This document shows, piece after piece, positions 1,409 through 33,989 of a stretch of 64,000 bases of DNA. Numbering within the stretch: the stretch's first letter is position 1; each line of letters begins with the position of its first letter. The notes below the pieces were generated by a model, which was not told the DNA's origin, ran no database searches, and saw only the letters and a program-made list of their open reading frames with translations. The stretch comes from Flavobacteriales bacterium (GTDB lineage: Bacteria; Bacteroidota; Bacteroidia; Flavobacteriales; Schleiferiaceae). The translations under genes and the position numbers were made by a program. The stretch covers positions 2,175,501-2,239,500 of the forward strand of contig CP051243.1 of assembly GCA_017795025.1 (NCBI GenBank), read 5' to 3'.

Positions 1409-2245
1409 ATGAAACGATTGATTTTTTGTCTCGGTCTTGTTGGACTCTATCTGATGCCTCAGTCTGCTGATGCACAGGTAATCAGTCCTTCCGATGACGG
1501 TATCATCCCAGATTCGCCTAAGCATTACCATAACAATATGGTATTCCCTTACCCTTATTTAAGAGAGGCGGATATGTTATGGTCTACCCGTCATTGGGAA
1601 CGCATTGATATGAGACAAAAGATGAACCTGCACCTCTACTATCCGGTACAAGCTATTCCGGATCGTAAGTCTCTTTACGATGTAGTAGTAGATGGTATCC
1701 TTAGCGAAGGAACTATTGTGGAGGTTTTTGCCGATGATCGTTTCGAAATTCCTTTAACCCCTGATCAAGTTCGTGGCTACGTACAAATGGTAGACACCCT
1801 GCGCGATCCTGATGACCCCTCCATCATCCTGCTAGTGGATACCATTAGTATCACTTCCAAGGATGTGAAGTTTTGGGAGGTTAAGTCTGACTGGTATTTC
1901 GATAAGCAACGTGGAGAAATGAAAAACCGCATTCTCGGTATTTCACCGGTTGTTGAAAATCCAAAGACCTTAGATCGCTACAACTTATTCTGGGTATGGT
2001 TCCCAGATGCGCGTTATGCTCTAGCTACGCATGTAGCCTTTAACGGTCATAACAACAGCGCACGCTTAACTTACGACCAAGTATTCCACCTTCGATTCTT
2101 CGATTCAGTTATCTTTAAAGAGGATAATGTTTATGATCGTCAGATTGAAGAATATAAGCGTAGTTCAGCTTTAGATCAGCTTCTAGAAGCAGAGCGGATT
2201 AAAAATAATCTGCGTAACCTAGAGGCAGAACTCTGGGAGTATTAA
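1409..2245 (+). CDS. gldN: Gliding motility/T9SS protein GldN
   Basis: 278-residue secreted GldN. The N-terminus is a signal peptide (hydrophobic stretch over about residues 3-18, then an Ala-Asp-Ala-Gln cleavage region). The mature protein carries the strongly conserved block of this family: PYLREADMLWSTRHWERID, the FADDRFEIPLTP segment and the DRYNLFWVWFPDARYAL segment. GldN forms a periplasmic ring with the lipoprotein GldK under the outer membrane and is required for T9SS export and gliding. It sits 12 bases after gldM and is followed by a strong hairpin terminator, so the gld operon ends here. The next gene is a close paralogue. Confidence 0.95.
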   Translation: MKRLIFCLGLVGLYLMPQSADAQVISPSDDGIIPDSPKHYHNNMVFPYPYLREADMLWSTRHWERIDMRQKMNLHLYYPVQAIPDRKSLYDVVVDGILSEGTIVEVFADDRFEIPLTPDQVRGYVQMVDTLRDPDDPSIILLVDTISITSKDVKFWEVKSDWYFDKQRGEMKNRILGISPVVENPKTLDRYNLFWVWFPDARYALATHVAFNGHNNSARLTYDQVFHLRFFDSVIFKEDNVYDRQIEEYKRSSALDQLLEAERIKNNLRNLEAELWEY

Positions 2246-2268
2246 ACTGTATTTCTCACAATTTTGAA

Positions 2269-2302
2269 AAGAGCCGTCTCAAACTATGAGGCGGCTTTTT
2301 TT
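2269..2302 (+). terminator. Intrinsic terminator after gldN
   Basis: Nine-base stem GCCGTCTCA / TGAGGCGGC (one G-T pair) with a five-base loop and a run of seven T directly after. It separates gldN from the gldN paralogue, which must therefore rely on read-through or its own promoter. Confidence 0.9.
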
Positions 2303-2350
2303 ATTCCCTTACCTCATAATTCCTTACATTCCTAATACTAAATCTCATTC

Positions 2351-3175
2351 ATGTCTAAGCTCCAAATTTTTGGCATTCTACTTATCGCTTGCCTTTTGCC
2401 TTTTGGAGGAAGTGGACAAACCTTAGATCCCGATCAAGGAGTAGAACCGGACGAACCACCCGAGAATCCAGTCTTCCCTTATCCCTATCTAAGGGAGGCC
2501 GACCTCCTTTGGTCTACCCGTCATTGGGAGCGAATCGATGTTCGGGAAAAGTTCAACTTACATCTCTTCTATCCCCTACAAGCTATACCAAGGCGAAAGT
2601 CTCTTTTTGATGTGATTGTAGATGGAATTCTCCTCGAGGAAACCATACTAGAAGTTTTTGCGGATGATCGATTTGAAATTCCTTTAAGTCCTAATCAAGT
2701 ACGTGCTTATGTGCAGATGGTAGATACCTTAAGAGACCCCGACGACCCTTCTATAATCTTATTGGTCGATACCATTCGGATTACCTCCAAGGATGTCATT
2801 TATTGGGAAGTAAAGTCGGACTGGTACTTCGATAAACAAAGAGGCGAAATGAAGAACCGTATTCTAGGTCTCTCCCCTGTGGTCGAGAATCCCAAAACCT
2901 TAGACCGCTACAACCTCTTTTGGGTTTGGTATCCCGACGCACGGTTTGCCTTAAATAATCAACTTGCTTACAATAAAGGCAATACGAATATGCGATTAAG
3001 CTATGATCAGGTTTTCCTGCTGCGTTTATTCGACTCGGTTATCATCAAGGAAGATAATGTTTACGACCGCACCATTGAAGAGTACAAACGTAGCACTGCC
3101 CTCGAACAACTTTTAGAAGCGGAACGAATTAAAAACAATCTACGCAATTTAGAGGCCGAACTCTGGGAGTACTGA
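2351..3175 (+). CDS. gldO: GldN paralogue (GldO-type)
   Basis: 274-residue second GldN family protein, very similar to the upstream gldN over the whole mature part, including the PYLREADLLWSTRHWERID block, the FADDRFEIPL block and an almost identical C-terminus (EAERIKNNLRNLEAELWEY). The signal peptides and the first mature residues differ. Flavobacterium johnsoniae has an adjacent gldN/gldO pair with partly redundant roles in T9SS, and this arrangement matches. It lies behind a terminator, so expression may be independent of the gld operon. The symbol gldO is given by analogy of position; orthology to the F. johnsoniae gene, rather than a lineage-specific duplication, cannot be shown here. 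Confidence 0.85.
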   Translation: MSKLQIFGILLIACLLPFGGSGQTLDPDQGVEPDEPPENPVFPYPYLREADLLWSTRHWERIDVREKFNLHLFYPLQAIPRRKSLFDVIVDGILLEETILEVFADDRFEIPLSPNQVRAYVQMVDTLRDPDDPSIILLVDTIRITSKDVIYWEVKSDWYFDKQRGEMKNRILGLSPVVENPKTLDRYNLFWVWYPDARFALNNQLAYNKGNTNMRLSYDQVFLLRLFDSVIIKEDNVYDRTIEEYKRSTALEQLLEAERIKNNLRNLEAELWEY

Positions 3176-27836: not shown

Positions 27837-30260
27837 ATGCTAAAACGCAGTTTAAAAATATTAGCCTGGTTATTCGGGGTGCTTAGCTTGATTTTTGGCA
27901 TCACCTTCGCCTTGCTATACTTTAGGCAAGACCAAATTCGCGATTTGGTTTTTGCTTCCATCAACGAAAATCTAAACAGCGAAATTTCGGTTCGAGAAGC
28001 GGGTATTTCTTTGCGGAAGTTCCCGAATGCTGCCATTCGCTTACAAGACGTTCATGCCGCTGGCAGTCATCAAATTGGCGATAGCCTCTTCTACCTTGAG
28101 GACCTCTTTGTAGAGTTTCGTATTTGGGATATGTTCGGAAGCGAAATTCCTATTAGCAAGCTAAGCTTAGAAAACGGCAACTTAAACTTGTTGCAAAAGG
28201 GAGAACGAAACAATTGGTCGATTTTTAAAGACAGTTCTGGAGAATCGGAAACTGCGATTAAGCTGGAATCCATTGCCCTTAAAAACATTAGCTATCGCTA
28301 TCAAGACGAGAGCACCGGGATAAAGGGCTTCATCAATAATTTAAATGCCCAAGGTAATTTTGGGGGAAGCAACTGGGACCTCAGCTTAAACTGGCAATCT
28401 CAAGCCGAAGCCTTTACGGTAGAGGAAGAGAACTACCTCAAGTCGGAAATCGTTTTTGACGGAGAAGGTCAGATGACTGGGGGTGATCGTTTCAATTTTG
28501 CCGCCGAGAAAGTTCGCTTAGGCACCATTAATGAACTTGAGGCATTTTTTGAGCTGGGTGAAGAAGGTTTACTGCGCATCAGTCACGAAAAATTCGACCT
28601 ACAAGAATTGCAAAACATTTATGCCATTCTTGGCATCGAATGGCCCGAAGATTTAAGCCTCCAAGGGGAAAGTGAGCTGCGAATTGATCTTATTATACGA
28701 GACAACCAAGAACTGCGCACCGAAGTTTTCGCCAGTTTACAAAACCTCTCGCTTCAAAGTCCTTGGTATACCGATGAAGATTTAGTGGCGCAGGTGGAGT
28801 ATTACCGTCAGGGGAAATTTGACCGACTTGAAATTCGCGAATTAAGAAATAGCGGCAGGAGTCGTGCCATACGTGGGACGATTCGCCAACTGACGAGTCC
28901 TCAATTAAACCTGCACCTTTCCCTTTCTGAGGATTATAACTACTGGGCAGCTTACCTGCCCAAGGATTGGCAAGTGAATAGTGGAAAACTAAAGGCCGAT
29001 TTAGACCTCCGCGGTCAATTTAAAGACTGGCAGTCCTTGGCCGGATCGGAACTGGCTAATGCTAGATTGGAAGGCAAAGTCGATTTTACGGATTTAAGCC
29101 TGGAGGATGCGGACGGCAATACCTATTCAATATCAAATGCTAAGACTCGTTTCGCCCAGAACAAACTTTATCTCGACACCCTATTAATCCAAAAGGAGAA
29201 AAGCGATTTAAGGCTGCAAGGACAAATAGATCGACCCTTGCGATTCATTAGCGATAGCACAAGTTTACTTGCGGCGCGCATGGTTATCGAATCGGAAAAC
29301 TTTGATTTAAACGATTTTTTAAGCGAAAGTGAAGGTTCGGAAGAGGGCAGCATGGGTCTGGCTTGGAAAGAACGATTGAATTTGCAGAGTCTTTTCCACC
29401 TCCACAACTTCCAATTTAGAAACTTCCAAGCGAAGGAATTAAAGGGGCAGCTTGAACTTAATAAAGGTTTCATCTTAGGCGATCGCATCAGCTTAATCGC
29501 CGATGAAGGTCGCTACACCGGGAATTTTAGTATTCATACTCCCAAGGACAGCAGCTATTACTTTAAGGCAAAGCTACAGGCCCAGCGGGTTAGGGTAGCA
29601 TCGGTATTTAGGAGCTTCGACAATTTTGACCAAGAAACGATTACTGCCGATAACCTAGATGGTATTCTCTCGGTAGATGCCCAAATATCGGCGCCAATGA
29701 GTCCAGCTTTAAATCTCGACCCACAAGGTCTGGAAGTTTTAAGTAAAATGACCATTGAGGAAGGGCACCTTCGCAATTACGAACCCATGCAGGAACTTTC
29801 CCGCTTTGCCGAAGTAGAGGAGCTTAAGGATGTGCAGTTTAATACCCTTACCAATACCATTACAATCTCCAAAGGCCAGATTCAAATTCCGGAAATGAGC
29901 ATATCCAGCAATGTGCTCAATATGGAGCTGAGTGGAACGCATGATTTTGAAAATCAAATTGACTATATCATTACGATGCGCTTGGGAGATGTTCTTTTTG
30001 CCAAGCGGGATAAGTCCTCCGAAAACAGTGAATTCGAAGAGCACCTGGCCATCCAAAAAAGAGATGACGACCACCGCATTCCCATCCGCATCAGCGGCAG
30101 TGTGGACGACCCAAAAATTAGCATCGACCGCGAGAGCATGGGCAAGTCTCTAAAAGAAAGCTTGAAGCAACAAGGTCAGGAAATTCGCGACCTCTTTAAA
30201 AAGGAAGAAAAAAAGGAGGAACAAGGCACGGGGCTTAAATTTGAGTGGGATGAAGGTTAG
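27837..30260 (+). CDS. AsmA-like envelope protein
   Basis: 807 residues with one N-terminal membrane helix (about residues 5-27) followed by a long periplasmic beta-rich part and a C-terminal AsmA-like block (LDGILSVDAQISAPMSPALNLDPQGLEV ... VLNMELSGTHDF ... IPIRISGSVDDPKISIDRE). The tail is Lys/Glu-rich. AsmA-type proteins are large grooved proteins thought to carry lipids between membranes; this one is in the size range of bacterial AsmA/TamB-like members. ATG 27837 is chosen over TTG 27828. The last 150 bases are repeated at 32458-32607 with three synonymous changes, so its 3' end is probably an insertion site. Confidence 0.85.
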   Translation: MLKRSLKILAWLFGVLSLIFGITFALLYFRQDQIRDLVFASINENLNSEISVREAGISLRKFPNAAIRLQDVHAAGSHQIGDSLFYLEDLFVEFRIWDMFGSEIPISKLSLENGNLNLLQKGERNNWSIFKDSSGESETAIKLESIALKNISYRYQDESTGIKGFINNLNAQGNFGGSNWDLSLNWQSQAEAFTVEEENYLKSEIVFDGEGQMTGGDRFNFAAEKVRLGTINELEAFFELGEEGLLRISHEKFDLQELQNIYAILGIEWPEDLSLQGESELRIDLIIRDNQELRTEVFASLQNLSLQSPWYTDEDLVAQVEYYRQGKFDRLEIRELRNSGRSRAIRGTIRQLTSPQLNLHLSLSEDYNYWAAYLPKDWQVNSGKLKADLDLRGQFKDWQSLAGSELANARLEGKVDFTDLSLEDADGNTYSISNAKTRFAQNKLYLDTLLIQKEKSDLRLQGQIDRPLRFISDSTSLLAARMVIESENFDLNDFLSESEGSEEGSMGLAWKERLNLQSLFHLHNFQFRNFQAKELKGQLELNKGFILGDRISLIADEGRYTGNFSIHTPKDSSYYFKAKLQAQRVRVASVFRSFDNFDQETITADNLDGILSVDAQISAPMSPALNLDPQGLEVLSKMTIEEGHLRNYEPMQELSRFAEVEELKDVQFNTLTNTITISKGQIQIPEMSISSNVLNMELSGTHDFENQIDYIITMRLGDVLFAKRDKSSENSEFEEHLAIQKRDDDHRIPIRISGSVDDPKISIDRESMGKSLKESLKQQGQEIRDLFKKEEKKEEQGTGLKFEWDEG
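30111..30260 (+). repeat. 150-bp direct repeat, copy 1 (3' end of AsmA-like gene)
   Basis: Covers the last 49 codons and the stop of the AsmA-like gene. It matches 32458-32607 at 147 of 150 positions with no gap. The differences are all third-codon-position and synonymous (Lys AAG/AAA, Thr ACG/ACT, Gly GGT/GGC). Homology stops right after the TAG. Confidence 0.97.
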
Positions 30261-30267
30261 TTCGCTT

Positions 30268-30468
30268 TCAGCTGTTAAAGAATTCCTCTAGGCTCAGGTC
30301 CAGAGCTTGGCAAATTAAAGTTAACTCTCCCACCCCTAATTTGGCGTATCCCGATTCGATTCTCGACACCCTACTTTGATTGGCACCCATCACCTCGGCC
30401 ATGGTTTCTTGCGTCATATTCCTATTCTCGCGCAACCTTCTTAGGCGAGCCCCCGTATCATCTTGCAT
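30268..30468 (-). CDS. XRE-type helix-turn-helix regulator
   Basis: 66-residue DNA-binding protein: almost nothing but a Cro/CI-like domain, with ARLRRLRENRNMTQETMAEVM, the recognition helix SRVSRIESGYAKLGVGEL and LICQALDLSLEEFF. ATG 30468 is preferred to an in-frame ATG 78 bases upstream because the family starts at this point. It ends seven bases from the AsmA-like stop (convergent) and is divergent from the mini-lipoprotein/T9SS substrate pair; the gap between holds two inverted repeats that may be its operators. It may act as an autoregulator or control the divergent genes. Confidence 0.88.
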   Translation of the reverse strand: MQDDTGARLRRLRENRNMTQETMAEVMGANQSRVSRIESGYAKLGVGELTLICQALDLSLEEFFNS

Positions 30469-30540
30469 TTTTGCAATATTTATAGACCTAAAAAAGGTCC
30501 AGATTAAGCTAATTAAGGGGGTTGATAGGAGACTAAAGTA

Positions 30541-30615
30541 AGTCAATTTCTATTGACTCCTTGATCGTAAACGTTTAAAAAACGGCCCAATCTAATTTTA
30601 TGCGATTCTGCATAA
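30541..30615. promoter_or_regulatory. Two inverted repeats, candidate operators
   Basis: AGTCAA-N6-TTGACT at 30541-30558 and TTATGC-N6-GCATAA at 30598-30615, perfect six-base arms with equal six-base spacers, plus an AAACGTTT palindrome near 30569. They lie in the gap between the XRE gene and the divergent lipoprotein gene. The two arm sequences differ, so they may not serve the same protein. Confidence 0.4.
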
Positions 30616-30698
30616 GAGCTTGACTCAAACCCTTTTTGATTTGCAAGTACATTAATCGCAAACCGATTAAAAACCTTGTTTAATTAAAGTTTAAAGCC

Positions 30699-30791
30699 AT
30701 GATTAAAAAAGCCGCTCGCGCAAAAACCGTCCTTCTTACTACCATTTTAGCATTATTTCTTAGCAGTTGCAGCGAGTACTTACCTGATTAA
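30699..30791 (+). CDS. 30-residue mini-lipoprotein
   Basis: A 31-codon frame (30 residues and TAA) that reads as a complete lipoprotein signal peptide: Lys/Arg-rich n-region (MIKKAARAKTV), hydrophobic core (LLTTILALF) and lipobox LSSC at residues 21-24, leaving a mature peptide of only seven residues starting at Cys. It lies 12 bases before the T9SS substrate gene and within the segment bounded by the direct repeats. It could be a real small lipoprotein or a leader peptide that tunes translation of the next gene. Short length means chance cannot be excluded, but the signal-peptide layout is hard to get at random. Confidence 0.5.
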   Translation: MIKKAARAKTVLLTTILALFLSSCSEYLPD

Positions 30792-30803
30792 TAGGCTTGC
30801 CTC

Positions 30804-32348
30804 ATGAATAGACCTATTCTCGTTTTAGTATCCGTTTTATCATTCTTCCTTAAAACACGTGCCCAAGAAGATAGCCTTAGCATTAGCTTAAGCAATTACT
30901 CTCATTCCCAGAGTATTGAGCATTACAATAACCATCTGTACCTGCCGATAAGTAAAATGACTTTAGGTAGTGGTTTTGAGGATTCCATTTACATTGTGAA
31001 GCTTGATCTAGGGCTCCACATTGTAGATAGTATTCCATTAAATAGTATTCTTCCATTTGAGAACCCCAGCTTTATGCATATCGGCGAGTTTAGAGTAATT
31101 GACTCTCTGCTGGTGGTGTCTGCCGCTTACAGCACTGTGGAATCAAATCCTAATTGCATTGAAGTAGAAAGTGCGCTGCTTTTCCTTGATGAAAATTTGA
31201 ACCTAGTAAGCCGCAAAATTATTCCCGCCCATGGTGATCAATTACTCGTGTTCGACCAATCGGGGGACGCTAGCCACATTGTTTTTAGCGGAGCGTTTTT
31301 CGAATGTGGGGGTATACGGTCTCCTCTCGTTGGTTACTACGACCTTATACAAGATTCATTAAATTATATCAGCACTCATCAGGTTGACACGATCAATGAC
31401 ATCACAATGGAAGCCATAGGACCATTCAGACACAATGAATTACTATACTTCGACCTATGGCCAATATCTTGGCGGAAAGGGTTTAAATCTACTCTAGTTT
31501 TAGACGATCAACTGCAACTAGTTTCTAATGGGAGTGCCATAGACCCGACCGTTTCCACCTCCAATATTCATGCTCATGGAGCCTTTATACCAACAAATGC
31601 TGGATTAAAACAGTTAGGATTGGCACGCACCTATCCATATGGATTTCTCCCCCCACTAGGTTCTCCTGATGGCTATTGGACAATTGGAGTCGCAGATATT
31701 GATAGTTTAGGAAATATTGGACCCATTGATACTTTCCCTCTGAGTGGTCATAATTATCAAACCAAAGAAAACCCATCCTCCAACCATCAGTTTGGCTTCG
31801 ATGGCTATGCCTATAATCAATCCGACTCAGTTTTCGTTATTCAGAATACCAAGCAAGTTCATTTTTACAATTATACCTCCCCAGATTCTACGAGCTTCTT
31901 TATTTACTCCCTCAATTTGAATAACAACACCGTTAATTGGTCAAGGGAGGTTCGAAGAAATGCGGTTGCGGGTGACCATGGTATCACCATTTTGCCTGGT
32001 AATAAACTGGCCATTTCATTTTCGGAGAATGATTCAGCCCGCTATGGTCGCGATAACTTAAAAGTGCATGTATGGATATTAGATGAAAAAGGAAGCATTC
32101 TTAGCAATGCTTGTTTTCCAAAGCGGCCAAGCTTAAATGTTTACCCCAATCCCTGCTCCGAAGTGCTCTATCTTGAAACGAAGAATAAAAATCAGCATTA
32201 CCGCCTTATTAACGCCTCTGGCCTTACTGTATCCGATGGAGTTTTAGTTCTCGGTAAAAACAGAATTGAGCTTGGTAAGCTACCAGAAGGATTTTACCAG
32301 CTCCAAATTGATCAACAATTTGTGGAGAAAATACTGATCAAACGCTAG
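30804..32348 (+). CDS. Secreted protein with T9SS type A signal, function unknown
   Basis: 514 residues. Signal peptide about 1-20, a mature part of roughly 410 residues rich in Ser, Asn, Asp and aromatic residues with no enzyme motif I recognise, and a T9SS type A C-terminal domain from about residue 443 (LNVYPNPCSEVLYLET ... LPEGFYQLQIDQQFVEKILIKR). The body may be beta-propeller-like, judging by recurring strand-turn-Asp patterns, but this is not certain. By eye its DNA looks more AT-rich than the genes on either side. It sits between the 150-bp repeats, so it is probably cargo of the inserted segment. Confidence 0.75.
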   Translation: MNRPILVLVSVLSFFLKTRAQEDSLSISLSNYSHSQSIEHYNNHLYLPISKMTLGSGFEDSIYIVKLDLGLHIVDSIPLNSILPFENPSFMHIGEFRVIDSLLVVSAAYSTVESNPNCIEVESALLFLDENLNLVSRKIIPAHGDQLLVFDQSGDASHIVFSGAFFECGGIRSPLVGYYDLIQDSLNYISTHQVDTINDITMEAIGPFRHNELLYFDLWPISWRKGFKSTLVLDDQLQLVSNGSAIDPTVSTSNIHAHGAFIPTNAGLKQLGLARTYPYGFLPPLGSPDGYWTIGVADIDSLGNIGPIDTFPLSGHNYQTKENPSSNHQFGFDGYAYNQSDSVFVIQNTKQVHFYNYTSPDSTSFFIYSLNLNNNTVNWSREVRRNAVAGDHGITILPGNKLAISFSENDSARYGRDNLKVHVWILDEKGSILSNACFPKRPSLNVYPNPCSEVLYLETKNKNQHYRLINASGLTVSDGVLVLGKNRIELGKLPEGFYQLQIDQQFVEKILIKR

Positions 32349-32457
32349 TCGTCAGCAGGAACGGGACTGCGCTTCGACTTAATCGATGGCCAACAGCGTA
32401 AAAATCAATATGGCTTTCTAAACTATTCTTCTATCACTCAAATTGCGACAAGCTTGA
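32349..32457. other. Unassigned 109-bp stretch at the right end of the insert
   Basis: No gene. One frame (from about 32358) reads roughly 35 codons without a stop and ends in TAG just inside the repeat at 32470-32472. Its beginning, GTGLRFDLIDG, vaguely resembles the AsmA-like tail GTGLKFEWDEG, which could mean an older, more decayed copy. Weak evidence. Confidence 0.3.
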
Positions 32458-32607
32458 CCAAAAATTAGCATCGACCGCGAGAGCATGGGCAAGTCTCTAA
32501 AAGAAAGCTTGAAGCAACAAGGTCAGGAAATTCGCGACCTCTTTAAAAAAGAAGAAAAAAAGGAGGAACAAGGCACTGGGCTTAAATTTGAGTGGGATGA
32601 AGGCTAG
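32458..32607 (+). pseudogene. 150-bp direct repeat, copy 2 (orphan 3' end of AsmA-like gene)
   Basis: A detached copy of the last 49 codons and stop of the AsmA-like gene. An in-frame TGA lies directly before it and there is no start, so it cannot be translated as part of a larger protein. All three changes relative to copy 1 are silent, meaning the two copies separated while both were still coding, as expected if one came from a related strain or element. Downstream lies the promoter region of the nuclease gene. Confidence 0.9.
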
Positions 32608-32668
32608 CCTGAGGCAGCAATTCAAAAGTTAATTGACACTGGCTTAACTTATGCTTACATAACATTTG

Positions 32669-32676
32669 TAACTTCG
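32669..32676 (+). promoter_or_regulatory. Putative -7 box TAACTTCG for the nuclease cluster
   Basis: One-base variant of TAnnTTTG, 17 bases before ATG 32694. It would start the long transcript covering the nuclease, the large secreted proteins and possibly the receptor genes. Confidence 0.4.
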
Positions 32677-32693
32677 CGCCCCAATTGTGAGGT

Positions 32694-33989
32694 ATGCTGA
32701 GAGGATTTATTGCACTCATTCTTTGTTGTTTAAGCTTCCAAGGCTTTGCGCAAACCGAAACCATCAAAGTGGTTTCTTACAATTTAATGTGGTATAAAAC
32801 AGGTTCTGCGCCCTGTAATCATAGTCGGACCAGCTCCCAACGTGATGCTGATTTGCAAACCATCGTTGATTACCTCGCCCCAGATGTTATGGTGGTTCAA
32901 GAGCTAGGTAACGCCCCGGTGAATCCATTGGTGATGTTGAGCGATATTTTTAATGTAAATGGCATAAGCCATTACGACCGAGCGGGCAGCAGTAACAACA
33001 GTTCGAGCAGCCTTGTAAATATGCTCTTCTACAATTCGGATAAACTGGAACTGGTTTCCCAAGACTTTATCGACCTCGATATTAATAATAGTCCCCTCAT
33101 CCGAGTAATTGACTTTTACCGACTTTATGTTAAAGACCCCGGTTTAGGCAGCCCGGGTGTAGATACCGTGTTTTTTACCATCGGCGTATGCCATTTAAAA
33201 GCGGGTAATTCAAGTGGCGATGCGGCAGAACGTGCCCGAGCCACTGCTGCGGTTATGCAGTATATCGACCAAAACGTGGGTGATGATAACGTCCTTTTCG
33301 CAGGTGACTTTAATGTGTACAGCGCCAATCAAACCGCTTTCCAAACCCTAGTAAACTACAGTACTAATCCAGCCATTAGTTTTAACGATCCCGAAAACCA
33401 AATGGGAAGCTGGAACAACAATAGCAGTTTTGCGAATTACCATACCCAAAGCACGCACAGCAGCTCGCAAGGTTGCTTTAGTGGTGGTGGCATGGATGAT
33501 CGCTTTGACTTTATCCTCATCTCCGATGCCATTAGTAATAATACTGATGGTTTGGCTTTTAGCGACTATCGTGCTGTGGGTCAGGATGGAAGCAGCTATA
33601 ATGGCAATTTAAACACTTCTTCCAACTTTAATGTTAACAGCACGGTAGCTAGTGCCCTCTATAATTTTAGTGATCACCTTCCGGTAGAAATCGAATTGGA
33701 AGCCAGTGTAAGTGGTATTGGACTAAATCCGGTTGACTGGATTCAAAAGGCCTGGACTATTGAAAACCCATTCGGTCAAAGTTTGCAGATGAGATTTAAA
33801 GGGGCTCTAGCGCATCGACCCCTTAAGGTGCAAATCTTATCCATCAACGGACAAGTAATGGGTACTTGGTCCAAGCAAGGGAATACAGAACTGGAAATTG
33901 AAACCGCCCATCTGCCGCAAGGCCTATACTTAATCCAGTTGCAAGATGGTGATCAGGTATTGGAAACTCGAAAAGCGATTAAAAAATGA
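32694..33989 (+). CDS. Secreted endonuclease/exonuclease/phosphatase-family enzyme
   Basis: 431 residues: signal peptide 1-19 (QGFAQ), then an EEP fold (about 25-330) with IKVVSYNLMWY, the metal ligand Glu in MVVQELGN, LFAGDFNVYS (catalytic D-x-N) and a late FSDHLPVEIEL with the active-site D-H. These are the signatures of DNase I-like/phosphodiesterase enzymes, so DNA, RNA or a phospho-compound is the likely substrate outside the cell. The last 75 residues resemble a divergent T9SS type A domain (LKVQILSINGQVMGTW ... LPQGLYLIQLQDGD) lacking the usual YPNP. It overlaps the next gene by four bases, so it is the first gene of the cluster. Confidence 0.88.
   Translation: MLRGFIALILCCLSFQGFAQTETIKVVSYNLMWYKTGSAPCNHSRTSSQRDADLQTIVDYLAPDVMVVQELGNAPVNPLVMLSDIFNVNGISHYDRAGSSNNSSSSLVNMLFYNSDKLELVSQDFIDLDINNSPLIRVIDFYRLYVKDPGLGSPGVDTVFFTIGVCHLKAGNSSGDAAERARATAAVMQYIDQNVGDDNVLFAGDFNVYSANQTAFQTLVNYSTNPAISFNDPENQMGSWNNNSSFANYHTQSTHSSSQGCFSGGGMDDRFDFILISDAISNNTDGLAFSDYRAVGQDGSSYNGNLNTSSNFNVNSTVASALYNFSDHLPVEIELEASVSGIGLNPVDWIQKAWTIENPFGQSLQMRFKGALAHRPLKVQILSINGQVMGTWSKQGNTELEIETAHLPQGLYLIQLQDGDQVLETRKAIKK

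Follow-up and report, generated by a model that had tools for sequence, protein, structure and literature searches.

Where integrase-bearing genomic islands sit at gene 3′ ends, direct repeats of the gene end bracket the cargo and the gene itself is restored. Gene-end duplications are also known from Escherichia coli, where, according to the available excerpts of one study, 56 of 60 Lac-negative clones arising from incoming DNA with homology to the lacZ end yielded the PCR product that marks a duplicated lacZ end; the 14 duplications sequenced measured 109 to 950 bp, and the authors attributed them to a circle that, having lost some of its homology, underwent a single crossover (PMC3240628). 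For Vibrio cholerae, a process akin to homology-facilitated illegitimate recombination (HFIR) has been proposed, in the excerpts available, for the growth of type VI secretion system (T6SS) effector-immunity arrays (PMC5361080). Homology-assisted illegitimate recombination is likewise offered, in the accessible part of a further report, as an explanation for dimorphic small variable segments (PMC2884548).

Here, we describe a duplicated gene end that brackets cargo in a Flavobacteriales bacterium of the Schleiferiaceae (G000), whose genome is a single contig of 3.44 Mb and 99.97% complete. The window (the whole stretch of DNA analysed) is 64,000 nucleotides long, and all coordinates lacking a locus label refer to it.

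A duplicated gene end brackets a small island

The locus begins with a complete AsmA-like gene of 807 amino acids (aa) (27837..30260, plus strand), a full-length relative of which lies at the equivalent position in six genomes of the same genus. The name "AsmA" is a weak one, as the match to PF05170 (E=1.2e-5, 24.7 bits) falls under the cut-off of 29.8 and the NCBIfam matches likewise fall under theirs. The last 49 codons of this gene plus its stop form copy 1 of a direct repeat (30111..30260, plus strand), with the cargo directly 3′ of it; copy 2, also on the plus strand, occupies 32458..32607. An in-frame TGA abuts the 5′ side of copy 2, which is thus an orphan gene end. The repeat starts with codon CCA of the AsmA-like gene and ends directly past the stop codon. 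As the original prediction had described, the copies align free of gaps with 147 of 150 bases identical, and the three differences, at 30203 (G/A), 30230 (G/T), and 30257 (T/C), are synonymous, all at third codon positions. In a search of the whole genome (E ≤ 0.001), the repeat matches these two places only, with copy 2 at 1.1e-69. A window-wide scan for direct repeats (≥30 bases, seed 14) recovered, as the only other families, two blocks of one 930-base duplication, at 1541-3171. This duplication (1409-3172) has a 930-base spacing, and its DNA is 74 to 75% identical.

Under random change in a noncoding copy, three synonymous differences out of three would have a probability of 0.005 to 0.017, which favours divergence before the event; synonymous differences alone are what one would expect of copies that had served as functional gene ends in two strains. 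The earlier claim that both copies diverged while coding is, as such, favoured, on a basis of only three sites.

Between the copies lie the three genes originally reported. A 66-aa XRE-family regulator (30268..30468, minus strand; HTH_3, 1.7e-13) is convergent with the AsmA-like gene and set 7 bp past its stop. It is followed by a 30-aa lipoprotein-like open reading frame (ORF; 30699..30791, plus strand), with a lipobox judged by eye and no family match in Pfam or NCBIfam, which may be either a stub or a small lipoprotein in its own right, and by a 514-aa T9SS substrate (P0002; 30804..32348, plus strand; Por_Secre_tail PF18962, 1.3e-6). The GC content of the cargo is 40.9%, versus 44.6% for the AsmA-like gene. 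No recombinase is evident among the ORFs of the island, and there is no further integrase-sized ORF between the copies, in agreement with the previous statement that the 2.2 kb are integrase-free. Among six proteins searched with PADLOC for a defence role, the only matches were HTH models on the XRE regulator.

The cargo ends in a 109-bp spacer (32349..32457, plus strand), whose right edge is a novel joint between positions 32457 and 32458. The spacer has no significant match among the loci compared (best other blastn E, 0.17; tblastx, none). Read in the frame that continues past the T9SS substrate stop, the spacer can be aligned to the AsmA C-terminus with a score of 34; 2 and 3 of 1000 shuffles scored at least as high with the G000 and G003 ends, and 12 to 29 of 1000 did so with the other three. 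At the DNA level, the fraction of 500 shuffles that attained the scores of the spacer against AsmA ends ranged from 0.018 to 0.66. We make no claim that the spacer holds a third AsmA end in decayed form: most of the DNA-level scores are unremarkable, and the frame was chosen post hoc.

To the right of copy 2, an intergenic stretch of 86 bp (32608..32693, plus strand), which has the length of an empty junction, precedes the conserved right neighbour, a T9SS-type endonuclease/exonuclease/phosphatase-family gene (EEP; 32694..33989, plus strand) identified by PF03372, PF18962, and synteny. The 86-bp stretch carries a conserved element just before EEP: its right part matches, over 21 to 51 bp, the region before EEP in G001 to G006, and we infer that it holds the promoter.

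Empty and occupied junctions in related genomes

Relatives of the AsmA-like gene were found in 45 of 58 other genomes, and the loci of the best 29 of those 45 were compared. EEP is the neighbour on the same contig in 17 of these, of which 13 are empty, with an AsmA-EEP gap of 46 to 243 bp (approximate, since the EEP start was taken from the alignment), and four are occupied, with gaps of 986 bp (G005 and G001), 2177 bp (G003), and 4570 bp (G002); the gap in G000 is 2433 bp. The empty site that the original prediction proposed to look for thus exists in related species: counting G000, 13 of 18 linked junctions are empty and five are occupied, the relatives all being other species. The remaining 12 of 29 loci have no EEP in the flank examined, nor did it appear in three of them that were extended 11.8 to 13.3 kb downstream. 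The gene order CBS, pdxJ, LD-like, pseudouridine-synthase-like ("rsm"), AsmA, EEP is kept in the six same-genus genomes and in G015, where the first four labels are putative.

In a tree of nine genomes built from six genes of the region, the five occupied genomes form one clade (UFBoot 100), with the position of G000 inside it weak (65). With 13 of 18 junctions empty and the occupied genomes in a single clade, the empty junction would most simply be the ancestral state, and the site would have turned into a cargo site within the occupied clade. A second AsmA end was not found in the other four occupied junctions, where the best matches are of chance size (≤21 bp), and a duplicated end is present in one of eight junctions compared, that of G000.

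The occupied junctions carry differing cargo of 0.99 to 4.57 kb. Those of G005 and G001 hold a 239-aa secreted-type protein (L044:10821-11540 and L045:9359-10078), 64% identical between the two, versus 96.6% identity over six concatenated proteins of the region; DNA identity drops from ~0.9 to ~0.7 across the cargo and is 0.98 to 1.0 around the EEP start. In G003 and G002, an XRE gene (truncated in G002) adjoins AsmA, accompanied by a 64-aa peptide with a GG motif, which we take to be a double-glycine leader, and by a protein of 290 to 327 aa that is 41% identical between the two. The G002 junction also encodes a C39 peptidase ORF next to an ABC membrane-plus-ATPase ORF, and that of G003 a 113-aa ATPase fragment as part of an ABC exporter. 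Together, the XRE, GG-type peptide, and C39/ABC exporter parts at L050:2226-6823 and L046:9753-11931 resemble a bacteriocin-like export cassette.

Homologues of the T9SS substrate occur at no fewer than eight loci in at least six other genomes among 395 genomes of the order (at most three candidates scored per genome shown). Those listed are 25 to 37% identical, all belong to the same family, and none lies at an AsmA-EEP junction. A divergent XRE gene stands beside the homologue at two of the eight loci (G003 C22 and G014), and a lipoprotein-like gene of 349 to 373 aa, lacking a Pfam match, precedes it at three of the eight (G005, G014, and G023); one of the eight, L068, is cut by a contig end. 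Given these neighbours at other substrate loci, the combination of XRE, lipoprotein, and T9SS substrate looks like a recurring cassette. The loci at which a homologue is accompanied by the divergent XRE, the lipoprotein-like gene, or both are L069, L071, L067, and L074. No homologue of the substrate was found in plasmids, nor was there a match in viral contigs, which were scanned by peptide pattern, a method sensitive to close relatives only.

In a search of 59 genomes, the best match of the window's XRE regulator outside its own genome is the XRE at the G003 junction (1.3e-11; 24/62 identical, score 133), versus 20/55 and 19/57 identical (scores 81 and 80) for the two cassette XREs, a similarity by which the regulator may have sat at the AsmA-EEP junction earlier.

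Orphan gene ends elsewhere in the genus

From G000, we took the window and 60 stretches of 20 kb (1.264 Mb, with a 1-kb overlap between two stretches), and from the sister species G005, L044 and 40 stretches (0.820 Mb, with an overlap of ~2 kb). Local direct repeats (60 bases, 80%) amounted to 77 pairs in the G000 sample, most of them arrays or tandem gene duplications, and eight loci were compared with their ORFs. Orphan ends were sought as same-strand matches, within 8 kb, to the C-terminal 50 aa of any ORF with a length of ≥120 aa, with ≤45 open codons before the match; this filter drops orphans longer than ~95 codons, so orphan lengths are not comparable. The scan returned four matches among 1066 ORFs in G000 (AsmA, tspO, and two from one gene in a repeat array, L116) and three among 702 in G005 (a GNAT gene in L170, an ORF antisense to a large repetitive gene in L182, and one in L187). 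By our reading, AsmA, tspO, and GNAT are orphan ends behind cargo in the 2.08 Mb sampled, GNAT being less clean.

The tspO locus (L085:4304-6780, equivalent to G000:C1 232304-234780, minus strand) runs tspO, gene A (265 aa), an orphan tspO end of 198 bp, and gene B (252 aa). Genes A and B have near-identical starts and diverged bodies. Overall, they are 38% identical, yet a 384-bp block comprising the tspO end, the intergenic DNA, and the first ~30 codons is 96% identical, and a simple duplication is thus insufficient for this locus. At the GNAT locus of G005 (L170:14311-16912), the GNAT gene is followed by a 177-aa protein of secreted type (by eye), a DnaB_C fragment, and a second GNAT end; this copy matches the gene at 93% identity across 129 bases and stops 9 bases short of the gene end. 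Synonymous differences make up 4 of 10 at tspO and 7 of 16 at GNAT, and 14 of 29 when pooled with AsmA (P 0.0013 against 0.215); given the individual counts at tspO and GNAT, the coding-divergence argument is clear for AsmA alone. A mirror scan with gene 5′ ends gave 22 matches in G000, of which 21 fall in L116 and L126, both of which look like repeat arrays, and the remaining one in L120; in G005, it gave two (L164 and L187). A 5′-end counterpart of the orphan ends may therefore exist.

It is conceivable, and we put it forward tentatively, as something we rather doubt, that insertion without an integrase, anchored at conserved gene ends, regularly stacks and swaps secreted and surface protein genes in this genus, with cargo added time and again behind a conserved gene and an orphan copy of its end often left there. 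Were this so, orphan ends would be a readable record of past captures, and if they are common in these genomes, past gene captures would be countable from sequence alone. This possible recurrence is more interesting than the single locus.

Proposed origin of the insertion

Because the right part of the 86-bp stretch is conserved before EEP, copy 2, the 86 bp, and EEP together amount to a whole empty-type junction. Copy 2 is thus probably the original AsmA end, displaced, much as had first been guessed, and copy 1 probably arrived with the cargo. The reading that fits best, and that we hold with somewhat more confidence than doubt, is that an empty allele acquired the occupied allele of a related strain by single-crossover (HFIR-like) insertion. 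A fragment of the occupied allele (AsmA 3′ end, XRE, mini-lipoprotein, and T9SS substrate) from a close strain would have entered a cell with the empty allele, and its ends would have been joined illegitimately, creating the joint 32457/32458 in an end-joined circle. A single homologous crossover within the 3′ end of AsmA would then have inserted the 2,347-bp unit. AsmA would have stayed intact, ending in one of the copies, with its original end displaced downstream as an orphan. The donor, the circle, the single crossover, and the original status of copy 2 are what we infer from the arrangement of the locus. Possible microhomology at the joint amounts to no more than a few bases, as read from this genome alone. 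A ComEC homologue at 1.517 Mb is compatible with DNA uptake; it shows that uptake is possible, no more. Insertion by single crossover from a related strain was the second reading of the original prediction.

The same product would result if, conversely, a cargo-bearing chromosome had received a fragment of the empty allele (AsmA end, 86 bp, and EEP) through a homologous exchange located within EEP or past it, combined with an illegitimate joint at 32457/32458. The XRE genes at the same place in G003 and G002 (truncated in the latter) suggest that occupied is the older state in the clade; if the cargo site is indeed old there, the empty allele that took part in the event would be a retained or re-emptied one, which tells against the favoured direction. 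We consider this converse exchange unlikely.

A little less probable again is a tandem duplication of the AsmA end plus cargo in one lineage, followed by loss of the second cargo, or a 150-bp template-switch copying. The tspO locus retains both downstream genes, as such a duplication would give, yet the contrast there between genes that are 38% identical and a 384-bp block that is 96% identical tells against it. At the AsmA locus, duplication would require a second deletion that ended exactly at the stop codon and restored the empty-type 86-bp stretch, and the three synonymous-only differences would be improbable under noncoding drift (P 0.005 to 0.017).

The reading first preferred, an element integrating at the gene's 3′ end, now seems improbable indeed. 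Tyrosine recombinases often target the 3′ ends of genes, and the repeat terminates precisely with the stop codon, as it would if an integrase supplied in trans had inserted a small recombinase-less element whose replacement end is copy 1. The island is free of a recombinase, however, and a genome scan for tyrosine recombinases (Phage_integrase, PF00589) gave three matches, at 1.128, 1.359, and 1.677 Mb, the nearest being 0.53 Mb off the locus at 2.2056 Mb. The other four occupied junctions have ≤21 bp of match to the AsmA end, the repeat stands at no second place in the genome that would mark a second insertion, and P0002 lacks a match in plasmids and, within the close-relative range of the scan, in viral contigs. 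Moreover, two other orphan gene ends bracket unrelated cargo.

An assembly artefact can practically be dismissed, as the assembly consists of one contig and three sites distinguish the copies.

Comparison with known systems

Single-crossover insertion of this kind is already known; the present locus is probably a case of it in a Bacteroidota genome, a clean natural footprint of apparent one-sided recombination by which cargo would have been gained without a mobile-element enzyme. As in integrase islands, the cargo lies between directly repeated copies of a gene 3′ end, but no integrase was found near the locus and the sister occupied sites are repeat-free. Dimorphic segments share with this locus their small size, a fixed site, and differences between relatives, whereas a gene-end duplication of such size is not described in the available excerpts of that report (PMC2884548). 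Growth of T6SS arrays likewise adds a module via a homologous anchor and displaces the old gene end downstream; in the portion of that study available, it is an effector gene that is displaced, whereas here AsmA remains whole and the cargo consists of XRE and a T9SS substrate (PMC5361080). HFIR in E. coli conjugation, as far as the excerpts of that work extend, resembles the present case in its insertion beside a gene end, in the duplication of that end, and in doing so with no site-specific recombinase, and the 150 bp duplicated here fall within the range of 109 to 950 bp reported for it (PMC3240628). The E. coli duplications arose with an engineered plasmid under selection, whereas the Bacteroidota locus carries a natural cargo of 2.2 kb behind its 150-bp duplication (PMC3240628, excerpts).
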